Below, piece by piece: positions 1 through 12,077 of a DNA stretch of 33,573 nt. The translations under genes and the position numbers were made by a program. The DNA is taken from the NCBI GenBank assembly GCA_015488325.1, contig WFOA01000008.1, forward strand, positions 1-33,573, read 5' to 3'. Origin of the DNA: Acidimicrobiia bacterium (lineage in GTDB: Bacteria > Actinomycetota > Acidimicrobiia > Spongiisociales > ZC4RG35). The notes under the pieces are model-generated. The model had not been told where the DNA came from and made no database searches. It worked only from the letters and a program-made list of their open reading frames with translations. Position 1 is the stretch's first letter; each line of letters begins with the position of its first letter.

Positions 1-1
1 C

Positions 2-112
2 ATCGACGTCGACAAGCCGGTGGTCCGGGCCCGTTACGAATACACCGACGCCGGCCTGCCCACCCTCGCCTCGGTCGTGGACGGGTTCCTCACCGACCGG
101 GGCCTCCTCTGA
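2..112 (+). CDS. 3' end of an unidentified gene (partial)
   Basis: This is the last 36 codons and TGA stop of a gene that enters from the left edge. The visible C-terminus reads VVRARYEYTDAGLPTLASVV and ends in FLTDRGLL. It is acidic to neutral with a helical end and has the G+C-rich codon use of the rest of the window. I do not recognise the family from so short a piece. Its last 71 bases, including the stop, plus 18 bases of downstream sequence lie in an exact 89-bp direct repeat whose second copy is at 1262-1350. The 3' end of this gene therefore appears to be one boundary of an insertion or duplication. Confidence 0.7.
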   Translation: MDVDKPVVRARYEYTDAGLPTLASVVDGFLTDRGLL

Positions 113-130
113 GGGTCGGCCCTTCGGACG
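42..130 (+). repeat. Left copy of an 89-bp perfect direct repeat
   Basis: The sequence is identical base for base to 1262-1350 (offset 1,220 bp). It begins inside the tyrosine/threonine codons of the partial gene (ACACCGACGCCGGCC), runs through the stop codon at 110-112 and ends 18 bases past it (CCCTTCGGACG). Identity breaks sharply on both sides: T versus C at 41/1261 and A versus C at 131/1351. The sequence between the copies is lower in G+C than the surroundings. Confidence 0.97.
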
Positions 131-242
131 AGTCGAGACCGACCAGATCCTTCCAACCGGTTTGCCCGCGGAAGTCCTTGACGTGTGTGTGTGGCAGCCT
201 TCGGCGTCGGGTGGGCGACGACCTGAAGAGAAAGGGGAACCC

Positions 243-812
243 ATGAGAATGGGAATGGTGGCGGTGGTGGCCGCCCTCGTGATGGGCATGGCAGCCCCCG
301 CATGGGCCGATTCACCCGCAACTCCCGCCGGCGGACGTTCCGGACAAAGCGTCGAGACGGTCCTTTCCTCGGCGGGTACCCGTACCGAAGTGCCTTTCGC
401 AGGTCGGGGCAAGGGCGGATACACACAGACGCTCGTTCTCCGGGGGGTTCTGGACAGAGGGGACAACGTCCAAGCCGGGACGAGTTGCTGGTGGGCCAAG
501 CCGACGTGGAAGCTCTACGACGGGTTCGGCAAGCTGACCAGTAGGTCCTGGTACTACATCGAATGGTGCGGCTCCGGTGGAGTCGTGACCGACGTCCTCA
601 CCCTGACCTGCGGGGGAGCGGGAAGCTTTCTGTGGGAATACCGGGGATGCTCGGTGCGCCGGGGAGCGCTCGGATACTCGTCCGTGAGGGTTCTCGGGGA
701 CTGGACCTATCGGCTAGGTTGGGGCGGAGCCTACAAGTACCAGTACGTGGAGGTAGACGCCCGCGACTATTGGAACGGTGTCTATACGGGCACGTGGTAC
801 GGGACGACGTAG
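243..812 (+). CDS. Secreted aromatic-rich protein of unknown function
   Basis: A 189-residue protein. The start is the ATG preceded at good spacing by AAAGGGG. A typical Sec signal peptide follows: a short basic start (MRMG), a hydrophobic core and an AWA|DSP cleavage site near residue 24. The mature part has four cysteines (contexts SCWW, WCGS, LTCGG, RGCSV), enough for two disulfides. It is rich in Trp, Tyr and Gly, especially near the end (RDYWNGVYTGTWYG), which suggests a small extracellular beta-rich domain. Codon use includes AGA and many A/T-ending codons, unlike neighbours outside the repeats. The membrane protein gene starts 9 bases downstream, so the two are probably co-expressed. 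Family not recognised. A secreted effector or bacteriocin-like protein with a membrane partner is one speculative reading. Confidence 0.75.
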   Translation: MRMGMVAVVAALVMGMAAPAWADSPATPAGGRSGQSVETVLSSAGTRTEVPFAGRGKGGYTQTLVLRGVLDRGDNVQAGTSCWWAKPTWKLYDGFGKLTSRSWYYIEWCGSGGVVTDVLTLTCGGAGSFLWEYRGCSVRRGALGYSSVRVLGDWTYRLGWGGAYKYQYVEVDARDYWNGVYTGTWYGTT

Positions 813-821
813 GGGGTACAC

Positions 822-1067
822 ATGATCGAGGTAGAGCGAAGGGAACCGGGGGGCCGTTCGGCCGAAGCAGTCAAGGCCATCGTTGCGTATCTTCCGTTCT
901 TGGTTGCACCGGTCATGCCGTGGATCCTCCTATCGGTGGTGACCCTCGTCATGGGATGGGTGATCATGTGGAATGTCCGTCGGGATGGTGCGGTTGTGAC
1001 TGCTGCACTCGCGACCGTTGGTTCGTTCTTGCTGTTCTCCCTGTTTCGCTTCCAATTGACCACTTAG
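822..1067 (+). CDS. Small membrane protein with two predicted helices
   Basis: An 81-residue protein whose ATG is preceded by AGGGGGT at correct spacing. The first 15 residues are charged (IEVERREPGGR). Two hydrophobic stretches follow, about residues 18-49 (possibly one long or two short helices around a Pro: VAPVMPWILLSVVTLVMGWVI) and 57-77. A basic loop (NVRRDG) between them suggests a cytoplasmic connection. It lies immediately downstream of the secreted-protein gene and shares its low G+C. No family is recognised. Candidate roles are an immunity or anchoring partner for the secreted protein, but this rests only on adjacency and topology. Confidence 0.65.
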   Translation: MIEVERREPGGRSAEAVKAIVAYLPFLVAPVMPWILLSVVTLVMGWVIMWNVRRDGAVVTAALATVGSFLLFSLFRFQLTT

Positions 1068-1260
1068 CGTCTTCAACGAACACCACCGGACGGCTCCGGG
1101 CCGTCGCGTGGGCGGCATCGGACCTGTGAGGTTCTTCTACCACCAAGCTGGGGCGCGACCCAGTGAGCCCAGGTGTCCCCAACACCCGTGCGTCCCCACC
1201 TTCGGCTCCGGGTAGCGGGAAGAGCCGCCGGGAGCGAACACGCAGTTGCGGATTCCGAAG

Positions 1261-1332
1261 CACACCGACGCCGGCCTGCCCACCCTCGCCTCGGTCGTGG
1301 ACGGGTTCCTCACCGACCGGGGCCTCCTCTGA
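1261..1332 (+). pseudogene. Orphan 3' tail of the left-edge gene
   Basis: These 23 codons plus TGA repeat the C-terminal end of the partial gene at 2-112 (TDAGLPTLASVVDGF onward). They are not preceded by the rest of that gene: the upstream sequence is insert DNA. It is a duplicated gene tail with no start of its own and is best read as the scar of the event that made the 89-bp repeat. Confidence 0.75.
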
Positions 1333-1350
1333 GGGTCGGCCCTTCGGACG
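1262..1350 (+). repeat. Right copy of the 89-bp perfect direct repeat
   Basis: Exact copy of 42-130, in the same orientation. After it the sequence diverges completely (CTACGGGCC here, AGTCGAGACC after the left copy). If the insert were removed by recombination between the copies, the left-edge gene would keep an intact 3' end and be followed directly by the gene at 1454. Confidence 0.97.
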
Positions 1351-1453: not shown

Positions 1454-2227
1454 GTGACCACGAGCCTTCTCGATCGACTCACCGCCGGGGATCGGGAGGT
1501 CCTCGGGAGGATTCTGGGCGAGGGCGCGGGCTGGGAGGACTTCGAGAAGGAGGTCACCGGCCATCCGTGGCGGCTGATGGACCTCCTCGCCGACCCGGCG
1601 CTGCTCGACGCGGTGCTCGACCCCCGGCTGGGGCCGGGTTCGGCGGTGTCGCCGACGCTGCTGTTCGCCGTCTTCGTCTGCCACGCCGCCGTCGAGCTCC
1701 GTTCGGCCGGCCACGTGGCGGAATGGGCGGGCCCCCACGCCCGGGTGCCCGTCTTCGACGTCGAAGAGGTCCGAGAGTTCCTGGAGGCCCCCGGCCGGGT
1801 GCTGTTCCTCGTCGAACTGCTGGCCTCGTTCGCCGGGACGGCACCGGGTCGGGGGATCGACGACCTGGTGACGTTGGCGGAGATGTCCGACGACTCGCCG
1901 GGCTGGTACCGGCGCCTCGCCGACCTGGCGTTGTTCCTCGCCGGGGTCTTCCCCGACCGCACGCTGCTGCACCCCTACTCGCCCACCGAGGCGGAGAAGC
2001 TGGGCCGGTCGGCGGGGATGTCGGCCGGTGAGATCCTCGCCACCTTGGCCGACACGCCAGGGGGAACCATCTCGGCGGTGGAGACACTGGGGTGCCGCTG
2101 GTATGCGAAGGCCGCCGCCGACCAGGAATCACCGGCGGTGGTCGCCGACCTGGCCGCCCGGTTCCGTCCGGCACGCCGGATCCTCACCTACGTCTCCGAC
2201 CGTCACCTCTACCGGAGAGCGGCCTGA
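1454..2227 (+). CDS. Hypothetical mostly helical protein
   Basis: A 257-residue protein starting at GTG, chosen because GGAGG lies 6 bases upstream and because the sequence in front of it reads as repeat or non-coding DNA. It begins TTSLLDRLTAGDREVLGRIL and appears to be all alpha-helical, with Leu/Ala/Glu-rich segments and no signal peptide. A moderately hydrophobic stretch at about residues 68-80 (PTLLFAVFVCHAA) is too short for a confident membrane helix. The C-terminus is basic (FRPARRILTYVSDRHLYRR). No catalytic motif is evident and I do not recognise the family. It has normal host composition and converges with the metallo-hydrolase gene, with 30 bases between the stops. Confidence 0.75.
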   Translation: MTTSLLDRLTAGDREVLGRILGEGAGWEDFEKEVTGHPWRLMDLLADPALLDAVLDPRLGPGSAVSPTLLFAVFVCHAAVELRSAGHVAEWAGPHARVPVFDVEEVREFLEAPGRVLFLVELLASFAGTAPGRGIDDLVTLAEMSDDSPGWYRRLADLALFLAGVFPDRTLLHPYSPTEAEKLGRSAGMSAGEILATLADTPGGTISAVETLGCRWYAKAAADQESPAVVADLAARFRPARRILTYVSDRHLYRRAA

Positions 2228-2257: not shown

Positions 2258-3046
2258 TCACACCCGCATGCCGTCGTAGGCGACCGTCCACCCGGCCGCC
2301 GCCACCTCGGCGGCCTGCGGCGAGCCGGGATCGCACAACGGGTTGGTGTGATTGAGGTGGGTGAGGACGACCCGTGTGTCGAGGTCACCGAACCGTTCGA
2401 GGGTGTCGGGGACGAACGGGTGGGGGATCTCGCTCAGGTCCCTCCCCGGGATCTCATCCGGTGACCAGAAGGTGGCGTCGAGGAACGCCACGGCGTGGGC
2501 GCCGACCACCTCCCGGGCGAGGGGCCATTGCTCCCACGAGTCGATGTCGGGCAGGTACAGGATCTCGCCTCCCACCGAGACGGCGACGGTGTCGGTGTGT
2601 TCGGCCCGGTGTGGCACCGTCAGGAGCCGAACCGTCGTGCCCCATCCTTCGTGTTCGAAACCCACCCGCAGCTCCACGTGGCCTGCGACGACGAGGCTGC
2701 GCCAGGGTTCGTGGGATCGGAGGAACGCCGCCATCGACGGGGTGACCAGCAGCGGCACCCCGGCGGCGTTGGCGGCTTCCTTCCCGAAGTGGACCAGCCC
2801 CGTGTAGTGACCGATGTGGCCGTGGGTGAGGACGACGGCGTCGGGCATCCCCGACCGGTCCGCCCACTGGCTCCTCAGGTCGGGCGAGGCGTCGAGGAGG
2901 AGACGCGCATTCGGGGTCTCCACCACGAGCGACGACGCGGTCCGGGCCGGGAGGTCTCCCCGTCTCACCGCCTCGTCGATCGGATGGGCCGAGCCGGACT
3001 GGGGGAGACCCCCGTCCTGGGCCGATCCGAGCACCGTGACCCGCAT
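2258..3046 (-). CDS. PqqB-like metallo-beta-lactamase-fold hydrolase
   Basis: A 262-residue protein. The opening MRVTVLGSAQDGGLPQ is the hallmark of the PqqB branch of the metallo-beta-lactamase fold. The metal motif is THGHIGH at 74-80, that is HxHxGH with Gly where most family members have the second-metal Asp. Further candidate ligands are the His residues of PHRAEH, the Asp of LPDID and the His of THLNH near the C-terminus. PqqB acts in pyrroloquinoline quinone biosynthesis, but no pqqA, C, D or E is nearby, so a stand-alone hydrolase of unknown substrate is more likely. It starts 3 bases after the stop of the dienoyl-CoA isomerase gene and is probably co-transcribed with it. Confidence 0.85.
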   Translation of the reverse strand: MRVTVLGSAQDGGLPQSGSAHPIDEAVRRGDLPARTASSLVVETPNARLLLDASPDLRSQWADRSGMPDAVVLTHGHIGHYTGLVHFGKEAANAAGVPLLVTPSMAAFLRSHEPWRSLVVAGHVELRVGFEHEGWGTTVRLLTVPHRAEHTDTVAVSVGGEILYLPDIDSWEQWPLAREVVGAHAVAFLDATFWSPDEIPGRDLSEIPHPFVPDTLERFGDLDTRVVLTHLNHTNPLCDPGSPQAAEVAAAGWTVAYDGMRV

Positions 3047-3049
3047 CGG

Positions 3050-3853
3050 TCAGGTTCCGGTGAACCGGGGAGGACGTTTCTCGAGGAACGCCGCCATCGC
3101 CTCGCCCAGGTCGTTGGTGTGGATCATCGCCGCGTTCCACAGGGCGACGTAGTCGAGGGCTTCGTCGACGGTGAGGTCGGCACCTGCACGGAGGACTCGT
3201 TTGATCCCCTGGACGACGATGGGGGAGTTGGCGGAGATCTCGGCGGCGAGTTCGGCCGCGGCCGTGTACAGGGCGTCGCGGTCCGCATGGACGTGGTCGA
3301 CGAGACCGAACCGCTCGGCGGTGGCGGCGTCGATGTCCCGCCCGGTGAAGGCGAGTTCGGCGACACGGCCCGGGCCGACGATACGTGGGAGCCTCTGGAG
3401 CGTCCCCACGTCGGCGACCAGACCCATGCGGGTCTCTCGGATGGAGAAGACGGCGTCGGCGGAGGCGAGGCGGATGTCGCAGGCGGTGATCAGGTCGATC
3501 CCGGCTCCCAGGCAGTATCCGTGGACGGCGGCGATCACCGGTTTGGGGCATTCGGCGAAGGCACCGAAGGAACGTTGGAGCTGCCTGATCGTCTCGTACA
3601 CCTGAAGGTTGCGGGCCCCTTCGGACGGGGCGTCGGGAGCGAGCCCGGCGAGCATCTGGAGGTCGATCCCGACGGTGAAGGCCGGGCCGTTCCCGGCGAC
3701 GACGACGACCCGGACGTCGTCGTTCCCGGCGAGGTCGGCGACGGCTCGGGGGAGATCCTCCCACATGTCGGCGGAGAGGGCGTTGAGTTTGTCGGGCCGG
3801 TTCAGGCGGATCCAGCCGGTGTGGTCGATGACGTCGACGTCGATGCGGGTCAT
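3050..3853 (-). CDS. Delta(3,5)-delta(2,4)-dienoyl-CoA isomerase-like (crotonase family)
   Basis: A 267-residue crotonase-fold enzyme. The start is the ATG preceded by AGAGGAG; longer in-frame upstream sequence is not family-like. The segment ADVGTLQRLPRIVG (about 147-160) and the later LDYVALWNAAMIHTNDL closely match the mammalian peroxisomal/mitochondrial ECH1 enzyme. The acidic pair used by ECH1 (Glu and Asp eight residues apart) is present as E140 and D148. Oxyanion-hole regions are FTVGIDL (59-65) and HGYCLGAGID (111-120). ECH1 moves double bonds in 3,5-dienoyl-CoAs formed while degrading unsaturated fatty acids with odd-numbered double bonds. A plain enoyl-CoA hydratase is the alternative, but the ADVGTLQRLP block argues for isomerase. 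Confidence 0.88.
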   Translation of the reverse strand: MTRIDVDVIDHTGWIRLNRPDKLNALSADMWEDLPRAVADLAGNDDVRVVVVAGNGPAFTVGIDLQMLAGLAPDAPSEGARNLQVYETIRQLQRSFGAFAECPKPVIAAVHGYCLGAGIDLITACDIRLASADAVFSIRETRMGLVADVGTLQRLPRIVGPGRVAELAFTGRDIDAATAERFGLVDHVHADRDALYTAAAELAAEISANSPIVVQGIKRVLRAGADLTVDEALDYVALWNAAMIHTNDLGEAMAAFLEKRPPRFTGT

Positions 3854-3877
3854 GGCTCCTCTGACGATGGGCGGCCC

Positions 3878-3883
3878 AGCATA
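3878..3883 (-). promoter_or_regulatory. -10 box for the isomerase gene
   Basis: TATGCT on the minus strand lies 24 bases upstream of the isomerase ATG, leaving a short leader with its AGAGGAG ribosome binding site. No convincing -35 is seen. It diverges from the hsp20 promoter. Confidence 0.5.
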
Positions 3884-3911
3884 CGAGCTTCGCCACCCAC
3901 CAGAAGGGGTC

Positions 3912-3940
3912 TTGACAGGGGAATAAAACTTGAGCATATT
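3912..3940 (+). promoter_or_regulatory. Strong sigma70-type promoter of hsp20
   Basis: TTGACA (3912-3917), a 17-base spacer and CATATT (3935-3940) form a near-consensus housekeeping promoter in an A/T-rich island within very G+C-rich DNA. This is the best canonical -35/-10 pair I found in the window. Confidence 0.75.
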
Positions 3941-3956
3941 GGACTTAGATCTAGGT
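3929..3956. promoter_or_regulatory. Possible heat-shock operator overlapping the -10
   Basis: CTTGAGC (3929-3935) matches six of seven bases of the left arm of the HspR element HAIR (CTTGAGT-N7-ACTCAAG), but the right arm is poor (ACTTAGA, 4 of 7). Immediately after, ACTTAGATCTAGGT (3943-3956) is a 14-base palindrome with one mismatched pair. Either could bind a repressor at the -10/+1 region. Neither is a proven site. Confidence 0.35.
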
Positions 3957-4014
3957 GAAGGCACGGAGGGGCGTACGACCGTGCCTGAACACCAACGAGA
4001 AGGGAGGGATGCGT

Positions 4015-4464
4015 ATGGCGCTGCCTGTCCTGCGTACGGATCGCGAACTTGCTCGTTGGGACCCCTGGGCCGACTTCGAGCGGCTCATGCGGCAGATGGA
4101 CCAGATGATGTTCGGGTCCCTGATGCCGATCGCCGAGCGGCTCGACACCTTCACGCCGCTGGCGGACATCGAAGAGACCGACGATGAGTTCATCGTCGAG
4201 CTCGAACTGCCCGGCGTGAAGAAGGAGGACATCGACGTCGAGCTGTCGGGCCGGACGCTGACGGTCACCGGTGAGCGGAAGGAGAAGGAGCGCACCGGCA
4301 TCCTCCGTCGCAAGCATCGTGTGACCGGTCGCTTCTTCTTCGAGGTGACCTTGCCGGCCGAGGTCGACGACTCCGGTGTCGAAGCCAGGCTCGAGAACGG
4401 GGTCCTGACCCTGCGGGTCCCGAAGACGGCTGCCGCCAGGCGTCGTCACATCGAGATCCGCTGA
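4015..4464 (+). CDS. Small heat-shock protein, Hsp20/alpha-crystallin family
   Basis: A 149-residue ATP-independent chaperone of the cytoplasm that holds unfolding proteins. The N-terminal arm (1-47) contains the ARWDPWADFERLMRQMDQM type of sequence common in actinobacterial Hsp20 proteins. The alpha-crystallin domain covers about 48-137, with the signature LENGVLTLRVPK at 126-137, and the tail ends in RRRHIEIR with an I-x-I-like element (IEI). The ATG at 4015 was chosen over the one at 4009 because GGGAGGG ends at 4008, which leaves a usable spacing only for the later codon. The gene is monocistronic, with its own strong promoter and terminator. Confidence 0.95.
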   Translation: MALPVLRTDRELARWDPWADFERLMRQMDQMMFGSLMPIAERLDTFTPLADIEETDDEFIVELELPGVKKEDIDVELSGRTLTVTGERKEKERTGILRRKHRVTGRFFFEVTLPAEVDDSGVEARLENGVLTLRVPKTAAARRRHIEIR

Positions 4465-8575: not shown

Positions 8576-9573
8576 TCGAACAGGGTGGGTCGGTACAGGC
8601 GGTCGTGGGTACGGAGTGCGAACCGGTCGGTCATCCCCGCCACGTAGTCGATCGCCCTGGTCAGGTCGTCGGCGTCGTCCACCCGGAAACTCTCCGGGAT
8701 CTCGTCGGGATGATCCCGGAAGTAGTCGACCAGGTCACGGATGACGTGGATGGCCCGCTGCTTCTGGGATTCCTCCTCGGGTCGCAGATACACCCGTTCG
8801 AACATGAAATCCCGCAGCTCGTGCATGATGTCCAAGGTCTCCGGATCCATCGCCACCCGACCCTGACGGAACGACTCTTCGACCACGGCGGTCACCATCT
8901 GGTTGATCCAGTCCCGCGACGACGTCCCGAACCGGGCGGTGGCCCGTCGGGGAAGCTCGTGGAACTCGAGCACACCGGCCCGGAGGGCGTCGGCGACGTC
9001 GTGGGTCAGGTAGGCGATCCGGTCGGCGAACCGGCACAGATATCCCTCCGGGGTCTCGGGAGGCGGGTCGATCTTCCAGGAGTGGGCTCGGACGCCGTCG
9101 AGGACCTCGAAGGTGAGGTTGAGGGGTTCGAGGACCGACAAGACCCGAACGCCGTGCTCCGAATGGAGCCACTCTCCCTCGACGTAGGGGCTGAGGGCCT
9201 CTTCACCGGTGTGACCAAAGGGCGAATGGCCGACGTCGTGGGCGAGACAGATCGCCTCCGTCAGCACCTCGTTGAGTCCCAAGGCGGCGGCCATCGCCCG
9301 GCCGACCTGGGTGACCTGCACGGTGTGGGTGAGCCGGGTCACGTAGTGGTCCCCTTCGGGGTTGAGGAACACCTGGGTCTTGTGTTTGAGCCGGCGGAAC
9401 GCCTTCGAATGCACGATGCGGTCCCGGTCCCGCTCGAAGGCGGTTCGGAAACGGTCCGGTGTCTCCGGCTCCGCCCTCCCCCGCGACTCGTCGGCTTTGG
9501 TGGCTGCCGGGGCGAGCAGCTCGTGTTCGAGGCGCTCGCGCAGCTCCCGTTCTCGGATCATCAGTTCGCTCAC
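8572..9573 (-). CDS. dgt: Deoxyguanosinetriphosphate triphosphohydrolase (dGTPase)
   Basis: A 333-residue cytosolic HD-domain enzyme that cleaves dNTPs to deoxynucleoside and triphosphate, controlling nucleotide pools. Visible motifs are the N-terminal DRDRIVHSKAFRRLKHKTQV, the metal His in RLTHTVQV, the HD pair in LAHDVGHSPFGHTGEE and the last metal Asp in FADRIAYLTHDVADA. The GTG at 9573 was chosen because TACCCT lies eight bases upstream, consistent with a leaderless mRNA. The alternative is the ATG at 9561, four codons later; neither has a ribosome binding site. The length suits the short actinobacterial Dgt type rather than the 505-residue E. coli enzyme. Confidence 0.93.
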   Translation of the reverse strand: MSELMIRERELRERLEHELLAPAATKADESRGRAEPETPDRFRTAFERDRDRIVHSKAFRRLKHKTQVFLNPEGDHYVTRLTHTVQVTQVGRAMAAALGLNEVLTEAICLAHDVGHSPFGHTGEEALSPYVEGEWLHSEHGVRVLSVLEPLNLTFEVLDGVRAHSWKIDPPPETPEGYLCRFADRIAYLTHDVADALRAGVLEFHELPRRATARFGTSSRDWINQMVTAVVEESFRQGRVAMDPETLDIMHELRDFMFERVYLRPEEESQKQRAIHVIRDLVDYFRDHPDEIPESFRVDDADDLTRAIDYVAGMTDRFALRTHDRLYRPTLFD

Positions 9574-9581
9574 GTCGACAG

Positions 9582-9587
9582 AGGGTA
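9582..9587 (-). promoter_or_regulatory. Leaderless -10 box TACCCT for dgt
   Basis: TACCCT on the minus strand is followed by eight bases (CTGTCGAC) and then the GTG at 9573. No ribosome binding site is present. Confidence 0.55.
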
Positions 9588-9592
9588 GAGAG

Positions 9593-9624
9593 GCCGGCCG
9601 GTGACGGAACCCCACCGGCCCGGC
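9593..9624 (-). terminator. Hairpin after phnE
   Basis: GCCGGCCGGTG (9593-9603) pairs with CACCGGCCCGGC (9613-9624), an 11-bp stem with one bulged base and a 9-base loop. It begins a few bases past the phnE stop. No T run follows, so termination efficiency is uncertain. It also overlaps the upstream part of the dgt promoter. Confidence 0.5.
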
Positions 9625-9629
9625 GGCCC

Positions 9630-12077
9630 CTACACCACCCGCTCCCGCAGCCTCGACGAGACGTAGTCCATCGTGGCGACCACGATGGCGATGGCGAGCA
9701 TCTGGGCGGCCGCCGCCCGGTACTGCAACAGGTTGATGTTCTGCTGGAGCAGGAACCCGATCCCGCCGCCACCGGCGAACCCGATGATCGTGGACATCCG
9801 GACGTTGATGTCCCACCGGTACATGGTGAACGAGATGTAGGGGGGGACGATCTGGGGGACGACGGCGTAGACGATCGTCTGCATCCGGGTCGCTCCGGTG
9901 GCGCGGATCGCCTCGATCGGGCCGTGGGAGATCGACTCGACCTGCTCCGAATAGAGCTTGGCGAGGGCGGCGGTGGTGTGCAGCGCCAGGGCGAGGGCAC
10001 CGGCGAACGGGCCGATCCCGACCCACACCACGAACACGATCACCATCACCAGCGGCTCCACCGATCGCAACGCGTTGAACACGGTGCGGGCGATGTAGTA
10101 GATGGTCAGACCGATCCCCACCGAGTCGCGTCGGGTCGCCCGGGCGGCGAGGAACAGGCCGTACAGGCCGCCCACCACCGCCGGGATCCAGAACGTGGCG
10201 GTCGGGTTGCGGAACTGGCCGAACCATTCGACGGCGGCACCGACCCCGACTCCCACCATGGCCCAGGCGGCGGCGGCGAGGGGGAAGTCGATGAGGGCGA
10301 TCACCCGCCTCGGGATCCGGCTGCGCATCAGGTAGCCGAACCTCCCGGCGAGGTTGGCGAGCACCCCCGCACCGAAGATGGCGGCCAACACCGGGATCAC
10401 CACCTCCATGATCTCGCCGAGCTTCTGGATGAACTCGCCGAGGAAGCGGAGGGGCCCGAGGGCCGCCCGGGCCGCCATCCCGGACTGGATGAAGAACCGG
10501 GAGATCAGGTAGAGCTCCAACAGCAGGGCCAGCCCGACGGCGACGAGCAGCACCGCCCGCCCGGCACGGCGGGTGAGGCTCGGCGCCTCCTCTTCGACTT
10601 CGGGGAGGGCGGCCCGCAGAGCCCTCACCATCAGGTAGGGGATGACGACGGCGGCCACCAGGGTGACCGCGGCGTTCGCCGACAGGGGCGCAGAGAGGGC
10701 TCTCATCCAGCGACTGAACTCGGTACCGACGACCACGCCGACGGGGAGGGCGAGCAGGGTGAGGGAGAGGTTGACGAGCGGGGTGGCGATGTCCCGCATC
10801 AGGTTGCGGGCGGCGAAGAAGGACAGCGGGACGGCGAGGATCAGGCCGACGGTGGTGGCCAGCAGCGCCAGCATCACCGTCTCGACGATCTTGTCCCAGG
10901 TGTCCTTGGCGTTGTCGGAGATGCGCGGCGACAAGTCGATCTGGTCGGCGAGGACCACCGACTTGTACTGGGTGCCGTCGTCGCCGTCGTAGAACACCAG
11001 CTTCCAGCCCTGCAGGGACTCGCCCGGCGGTCCGACCACTTCGACCGCCGGACCGTCGGCCACCCCCAGCTCGTCGATGAACGGGTCGGCGGGGACCCTG
11101 CCGCCGGGCAGTTCCTCCACGTCGATCGTGCCGAAATCGGCCGGTCCCGGGCCCTGCCAGGTCGCCTCCTCCAGCGTGGCGCCGCCGACGGCTCTCACCG
11201 ACTGGTTCGGGTCGAGGGCGAAGGGGTCGTCGACGCCGATGGCCTGGGCGGTGCGTCCGGCGGCGGCGCCCTTCGTCGCCTCGAAGCTCTCGCCCCAGCC
11301 GAGGAACTGGCGGGCGTTGCCGGTGTCGTCGACGAGGGCGACCCCGCCCGGCGATCGGATCGGGAAGTCGGGGAGGAGCAGCGTCTGGGCGGCGGCGGTC
11401 CCGGCGGCGTCGGGGAGACGTTTCGGGTCGCGGGTGCCGTTCTCGTTGGTGTCGGTCCACACTTCGACCCGGTTGGTCCACGAGCCGATGGGCACCTTCA
11501 CCGTGGCCCGGATCTCCTGCGGTTCGTCGGCGACACGGTCGGGCACCTCGTATTCGGCGACGATGGTGCCGTCCGGACCGGCGGCCACCCGCCCGATCGG
11601 CAACGTGATGGCGAACTCGGACCGCGGTACGAACTCGAGGGCGACGGTCTCTTCGGGTTCGAACCCGGACCCGGTGATGGTGACGGTGTCACCTGGGGCG
11701 GCGCAGGCGGGGTTCACGGTGATGGTCGGGCCTTCGCCCGACGGAGCCGGCGGCACGGGAGGCGTCGCCGGGCAGGGGACGAAGAAGGGGACCGAGATGA
11801 TCTGGTCTTCGGTGTCGTAGGTGATGAGGTCGGGTTTCGCCAGGGCCCGGAGGATGCGGAAGAGCTGGACACGTCTCGTCTCCGACTGGATCTCGTCGAG
11901 ACGAACGTTGGTGGCGGAGAACGCGAAGGCGTAGACGACGAACCCGGCGAGGAGGGCGATGACCAGCTTGACGGCGCGTCGTCGGCGTTTCCGCCCTTCG
12001 TCGTCGGGGGGCGGCGTCTCCGAGGGCGGCTCCGGTGGCTGCTCGGCGGTGGTCGGGGGGCGGGCCGTCTCAACCAA
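9630..12077 (-). CDS. phnE: Oversized PhnE-like phosphonate-type ABC permease
   Basis: An 815-residue permease, about three times a normal PhnE. The start is a TTG with AAGGAGG nine bases upstream, overlapping the end of phnC by 8 bases. Order: Pro-rich cytoplasmic tail (1-35); helix (about 36-55); extracytoplasmic region (about 56-390) with a TIG-like stretch (GDTVTITGSGF, about 129-139), a segment like the second half of a lamin-tail domain (about 240-320) and one like its first half (about 330-381); first PhnE helix block (398-427); about 220 residues with extra helices (428-650); then the conserved PhnE end (653-815) with the EAA loop GPIEAIRATGATRMQ and GFAGGGGIGF. The uniform frame and continuous translation argue against an assembly fusion. 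The added modules may bind substrate or the cell wall, but their role is unknown. Confidence 0.85.
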   Translation of the reverse strand: MVETARPPTTAEQPPEPPSETPPPDDEGRKRRRRAVKLVIALLAGFVVYAFAFSATNVRLDEIQSETRRVQLFRILRALAKPDLITYDTEDQIISVPFFVPCPATPPVPPAPSGEGPTITVNPACAAPGDTVTITGSGFEPEETVALEFVPRSEFAITLPIGRVAAGPDGTIVAEYEVPDRVADEPQEIRATVKVPIGSWTNRVEVWTDTNENGTRDPKRLPDAAGTAAAQTLLLPDFPIRSPGGVALVDDTGNARQFLGWGESFEATKGAAAGRTAQAIGVDDPFALDPNQSVRAVGGATLEEATWQGPGPADFGTIDVEELPGGRVPADPFIDELGVADGPAVEVVGPPGESLQGWKLVFYDGDDGTQYKSVVLADQIDLSPRISDNAKDTWDKIVETVMLALLATTVGLILAVPLSFFAARNLMRDIATPLVNLSLTLLALPVGVVVGTEFSRWMRALSAPLSANAAVTLVAAVVIPYLMVRALRAALPEVEEEAPSLTRRAGRAVLLVAVGLALLLELYLISRFFIQSGMAARAALGPLRFLGEFIQKLGEIMEVVIPVLAAIFGAGVLANLAGRFGYLMRSRIPRRVIALIDFPLAAAAWAMVGVGVGAAVEWFGQFRNPTATFWIPAVVGGLYGLFLAARATRRDSVGIGLTIYYIARTVFNALRSVEPLVMVIVFVVWVGIGPFAGALALALHTTAALAKLYSEQVESISHGPIEAIRATGATRMQTIVYAVVPQIVPPYISFTMYRWDINVRMSTIIGFAGGGGIGFLLQQNINLLQYRAAAAQMLAIAIVVATMDYVSSRLRERVV

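Follow-up and report, generated by a model that had tools for sequence, protein, structure and literature searches.

Near the left edge of the window, the whole 33,573-nucleotide stretch of DNA analysed here, we identified a non-autonomous cassette of 1.13 kb that we interpret as a recent insertion, apparently polymorphic. The cassette would have entered the end of a GTPase gene by a process that copies its target, without an integrase of its own. We give this reading a probability of about 0.4. The narrower claim, that the insertion at the end of the GTPase gene is real, is very likely correct. The window is contig C8 of its own genome (G000), a metagenome bin assembled into 162 contigs.

The upstream gene reaches into the window with its last 36 codons and stop (2-112, plus strand). 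Its complete copy, on contig C136 of the same assembly (9062-10414), encodes a GTPase of 450 amino acids that resembles cyclic-2,3-diphosphoglycerate synthetase (it matches PDB 9sxb at E 2.3e-6 and has a cobW nucleotide-binding domain). An exact 89-bp direct repeat, with both copies on the plus strand, lies at 42-130 and 1262-1350, with 1,220 bp from start to start. The first copy comprises the last 71 bases of the GTPase gene, including its TGA stop codon (110-112), and 18 bases beyond it; the second is followed by the native downstream flank. A sequence-only reading of this DNA had described the repeat in the same terms and had noted that it restores the 3' end of the gene, and we could reproduce both. 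The repeat is far beyond chance, because shuffled versions of the window contained no exact direct repeat longer than 15-16 bp.

The insert proper (131-1261, plus strand) is 1,131 bp long. Its G+C content is 63.2%, against 69.0% in the remainder of the window and 74% in the repeat itself, and of all other stretches of 1,131 bp in the window only 1.6% have a G+C content as low. The difference had earlier been put at 58% against 74%, which is right in direction but overstated in size. We found no inverted repeat joining the ends of the insert (arms of at least 8 nt, within the 60-nt limit of the scan) and none of at least 30 nt in the whole window. A tRNA or tmRNA as the target was rejected, since the window contains neither.

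The insert is missing from this site in two places. Contig C136 ends with an empty site, in which window positions 1-130 are joined exactly to 1351-1399 and the repeat is present as a single copy. In the congener G001, the next gene after the GTPase gene is a homologue of the right-flank gene (1454-2227, plus strand; 257 amino acids, without a Pfam family), the same order as in the empty arrangement of C136, and the empty site aligns through at 74% over 595 columns. Because G001 aligns through the empty site, the empty arrangement is ancestral and the insert derived. The sequence-only reading had singled out a single-copy empty site in related genomes and further occurrences of the 89-bp word as informative. 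The former was found in the congener and also in the own assembly, and the latter at one place in the own genome besides the window locus, the empty site on C136. No further copies of the insert were found in the own genome. The insertion is apparently polymorphic within its own assembly, with both alleles meeting near contig ends.

The insert reads as one operon, in which a promoter-like element of the form TTGAC-(TG)n precedes genes for a predicted secreted protein and a predicted membrane protein. The element (178-200, plus strand) is TTGACG-(TG)5-G-CAGCCT with a spacer of 11. A strict sigma-70 scan of the window did not list it, because that scan requires a spacer of 16-18 nt. ORF1 (243-812, plus strand) encodes 189 amino acids with a start that resembles a signal peptide by eye and belongs to no recognised family. 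Searches of protein families, phages, plasmids, viral contigs and the species-genome scan returned no relatives of it, and among 197 related genomes there were only marginal matches, one of 24 and one of 49 residues. A structure prediction from the single sequence reached a mean pLDDT of 41 and was set aside. ORF2 (822-1067, plus strand) encodes a predicted small membrane protein of 81 amino acids and has a homologue on contig C78 of G001 (42% over 62 residues); we found no viral relatives of this pair. Downstream of ORF2, an inverted repeat with 12-nt arms and a 5-nt loop, without a T run, may mark the end of the transcription unit (1083-1111, plus strand). A phage or plasmid origin was rejected on the lack of phage, plasmid and viral-contig matches for ORF1 and of viral relatives for the ORF2 pair. 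A reading of the insert as defence genes was likewise rejected, as none were found. The ORFs of the insert include no integrase, excisionase, phage gene or transposase. This agrees with the earlier statement that no recombinase is present; neither of the two insert ORFs is one, and contig C8 has no PF00589 match. At G001:C78, the ORF1 homologue is interrupted by genes that, by reading the sequence, resemble an XRE (helix-turn-helix)/ImmA-like pair and a PIN-like gene.

The promoter-like element belongs to a family. TTGAC-N-(TG)n recurs before small signal-peptide genes on contigs C101, C145 and C69 (three units) of the own genome, and on C331, C138, C234, C329, C30 (three), C248, C90, C78 and C308 of G001. 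Four of the five (TG)5+ tracts in the own genome are part of such an element, and several family members have a near-palindrome like GGGACGAACGTCCC upstream. We compared 17 promoters from the two genomes for the distance between TTGACN and a CAnnnT-like hexamer, with the second (-10) hexamer fitted by hand at two of the 17 (C101 and G001:C329). The distances were 9, 9, 11, 11, 13, 13, 15, 15, 17, 17, 17, 19, 21, 21, 21, 25 and 29. All 17 putative -35/-10 spacers are therefore odd and range from 9 to 29 bp around the usual 17, a variation seen between loci and between the two species only. This is the pattern that dinucleotide slippage in a promoter spacer would leave. We reason from it that cassette expression is probably phase-variable through the (TG)n tract in the -35/-10 spacer, and we regard the 17 elements as a candidate phase-variable regulon of secreted proteins in the genus. 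With its 11-bp spacer, the promoter of the window cassette would be off. In open-licence papers, we found no report of such phase variation in an uncultured high-G+C lineage.

The exact 20-mer TTGACATGTGTGTGTGTGTG occurs on only four contigs in the species-genome collection, one of which is from G001 (JALSJV010000329.1, an Acidimicrobiia bin). Two more of these contigs (JANYBW010000049.1, 5677; WGMP01000010.1, 6574-6593, minus strand), from an Actinomycetes and a Phycisphaera bin, likewise have this TTGACA-(TG)n 20-mer in front of a signal-peptide-like gene. Contigs C69 of the own genome and C30 of G001 each hold three related cassettes in an array, spaced by about 1.3-2 kb; every unit has a gene for a secreted protein, and many also have a lipoprotein-like gene. 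On G001:C329, the (TG)n promoter is separated from its secreted-protein gene by an IS-like element (about 2700-4090 of the examined stretch) that contains a 419-aa transposase-like ORF and has the short repeat GGTTCGGACTGAGG on both sides.

A second member of the family is also flanked by a duplicated gene tail. On G001:C138, the target gene, SIMPL-like by reading, ends in CTCGACGACTGAACGGCGGC, and 51 bp of this tail, exact and within an 82-bp match at 88%, recur 1,167 bp downstream. The cassette has the order TTGACA, TG tract, secreted protein, lipoprotein-like gene. Eroded similarity extends to the left of the exact run, to a degree reached by 1% of random placements, and the arrangement therefore looks like an older version of that in the window. 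The C138 repeat and the 89-bp window repeat are unrelated on both strands and share no core. This argues against one site-specific integrase and favours insertion by target copying. The site-specific integration proposed in the sequence-only reading is less well supported, in that a second cassette with an unrelated gene-tail repeat fits target copying better than it fits one integrase and one att site.

Under target copying, the cassette would enter during repair of a widely staggered break. Alternatively, replication would switch template and resume about 90 bp upstream. In either case, the duplicate tail would restore the end of the gene, and gene-end insertions would survive because of this restoration. 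Homologous recombination between the repeats could later restore the empty site, so that the cassette would be lost cleanly. This reading is supported by the pair of cassettes, in the window and on C138, flanked by unrelated duplicated gene tails. Further support comes from the exact empty site on C136, the alignment of G001 through that site, the single copy of the insert in its own genome, the lack of a recombinase among its ORFs, the odd spacers of the 17 family promoters and the presence/absence difference at C331 described below. Several findings count against it. These two are the only clearly flanked cassettes. Both duplications hold the stop codon and are oriented with the upstream gene, as an integrase would also produce. 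No microhomology above background was found at the insert junctions in the window. Finally, the C138 locus has a history of more than one rearrangement, as indicated by a hutU-like gene-tail fragment behind its second repeat (reverse strand, about 2750-2820). This fragment is also found before the cassette on G001:C308 (206-276).

No clear flanking gene-tail repeats were found at the other family cassettes. A candidate at C145, matching at 76% over 42 bp close to a mutM-like gene, was set aside as too weak. At both C145 and G001:C234, the cassette lies between PNPase-like and mutM-like genes. At the latter, a mutM-like 5' fragment precedes the cassette, which may represent a disruption or a duplication, and the contig ends there. 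The gene before the G001:C331 cassette has an orthologue in the own genome (C114) with no cassette behind it, another difference in presence and absence. The broad claim would be that a recombinase-less cassette family in this acidimicrobial genus moves by target copying, leaving gene 3' ends duplicated over about 80-90 bp, and uses phase-variable (TG)n promoters to express diverse secreted proteins. Movement of the whole family in this way is drawn from two cases, and we consider the claim in full unlikely.

The main rival to target copying is a tyrosine recombinase acting in trans, in the manner of e14 at icd. The 89-bp repeats would then be attL and attR, and the cassette a satellite or deletion derivative that depends on an integrase gene located elsewhere. 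An architecture that restores a gene tail, together with a precise empty site, is what such an enzyme would leave, and prophage e14 likewise duplicates 165 bp of icd (PMC11148124). The own genome has five PF00589 matches, of which the two strongest are Xer-like by score and size, leaving three others as possible sources (C50, C117 and a partial match on C83). However, the insert has no integrase, excisionase or phage gene, and the only other occurrence of the 89-bp word in the own genome is the empty site, so no autonomous partner uses the site there. The repeat of the second cassette has no common core with that in the window, although different integrases could have acted at the two loci. 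Integration in trans, an option already in the sequence-only reading, is a serious contender, and one we hold to be somewhat unlikely.

A Campbell-type event is improbable. Circular or transformed DNA from another strain, already holding the cassette and the gene tail, would have recombined homologously over the 89 bp. This needs no recombinase, is consistent with two identical repeats and would also account for the spread of the insertion within the species, but it leaves the first joining of cassette to gene tail unexplained, and ORF1 has no plasmid or phage relative.

An assembly artefact, in which a repeat near the word size of the assembler produced a false join, had been raised in the sequence-only reading and is no more probable. 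The source is a metagenome bin, some of whose contig ends resemble strain variants (C67/C72, 97%), and the two alleles meet close to contig ends, since C8 begins 41 bp before the repeat and C136 stops 49 bp after it. However, the contig overlap amounts to 130 bp for the start of C8 and 138 bp for the end of C136, and at its other end C136 shares 151 bp with C52. Each of these is longer than 89 bp, and the repeat by itself is therefore unlikely to have produced the joins. The empty site is found both on C136 and in G001, and the insert forms an entire transcription unit, whose family is chromosomal in the genus. In addition, the G001:C138 repeat is eroded, which a word-size effect cannot produce.

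If insertion does copy the target without a recombinase, one-operon cassettes could enter the ends of genes harmlessly and be lost cleanly. Secreted proteins would then be shuffled and switched without a dedicated recombinase, and presence or absence would be combined with on/off switching of these proteins in an uncultured high-G+C lineage.

We compared the insert with known systems. DDE transposons and insertion sequences encode a transposase and leave a short (2-15 bp) target duplication, whereas the insert has no transposase ORF and a duplication of 89 bp. The cassettes resemble integron gene cassettes in being small, mobile and limited to one operon, and in that some form arrays (C69, G001:C30). 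They differ in that their flanks are target-gene tails instead of attC/attI and that they bring their own promoter; by eye, no GTTRRRY-type core or attC is present at the insert borders, and on this ground an integron gene cassette was rejected. The promoters recall hif of Haemophilus, where simple (TA)n repeats in the promoter spacer cause phase variation. As in hif, the sequence between the -35-like and -10-like hexamers contains a dinucleotide tract, and across the 17 sites the spacer length differs in steps of two, the repeat unit. Here, however, the tract is (TG)n, the genus is a high-G+C actinobacterial one, and many different secreted-protein genes are involved.

The closest parallel for the insertion is prophage e14 of E. 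coli K-12, which is inserted at the 3' end of icd with the 165 bp of that gene duplicated on its other side; icd stays functional, and a precise empty site exists (PMC11148124, PMC6379469). The window insert likewise lies at the 3' end of a protein gene, has gene-tail direct repeats and has a precise single-copy empty site (C136, G001). However, e14 is a prophage that encodes an integrase and has tails mismatched at 12 positions, whereas the window insert is 1.13 kb long with two genes, encodes no recombinase, shares no common core with the C138 site and has tails identical over 89 bp. Insertions that restore a gene tail are already known; a recombinase-less, one-operon version, in a family whose promoters are slippery, seems to be new.
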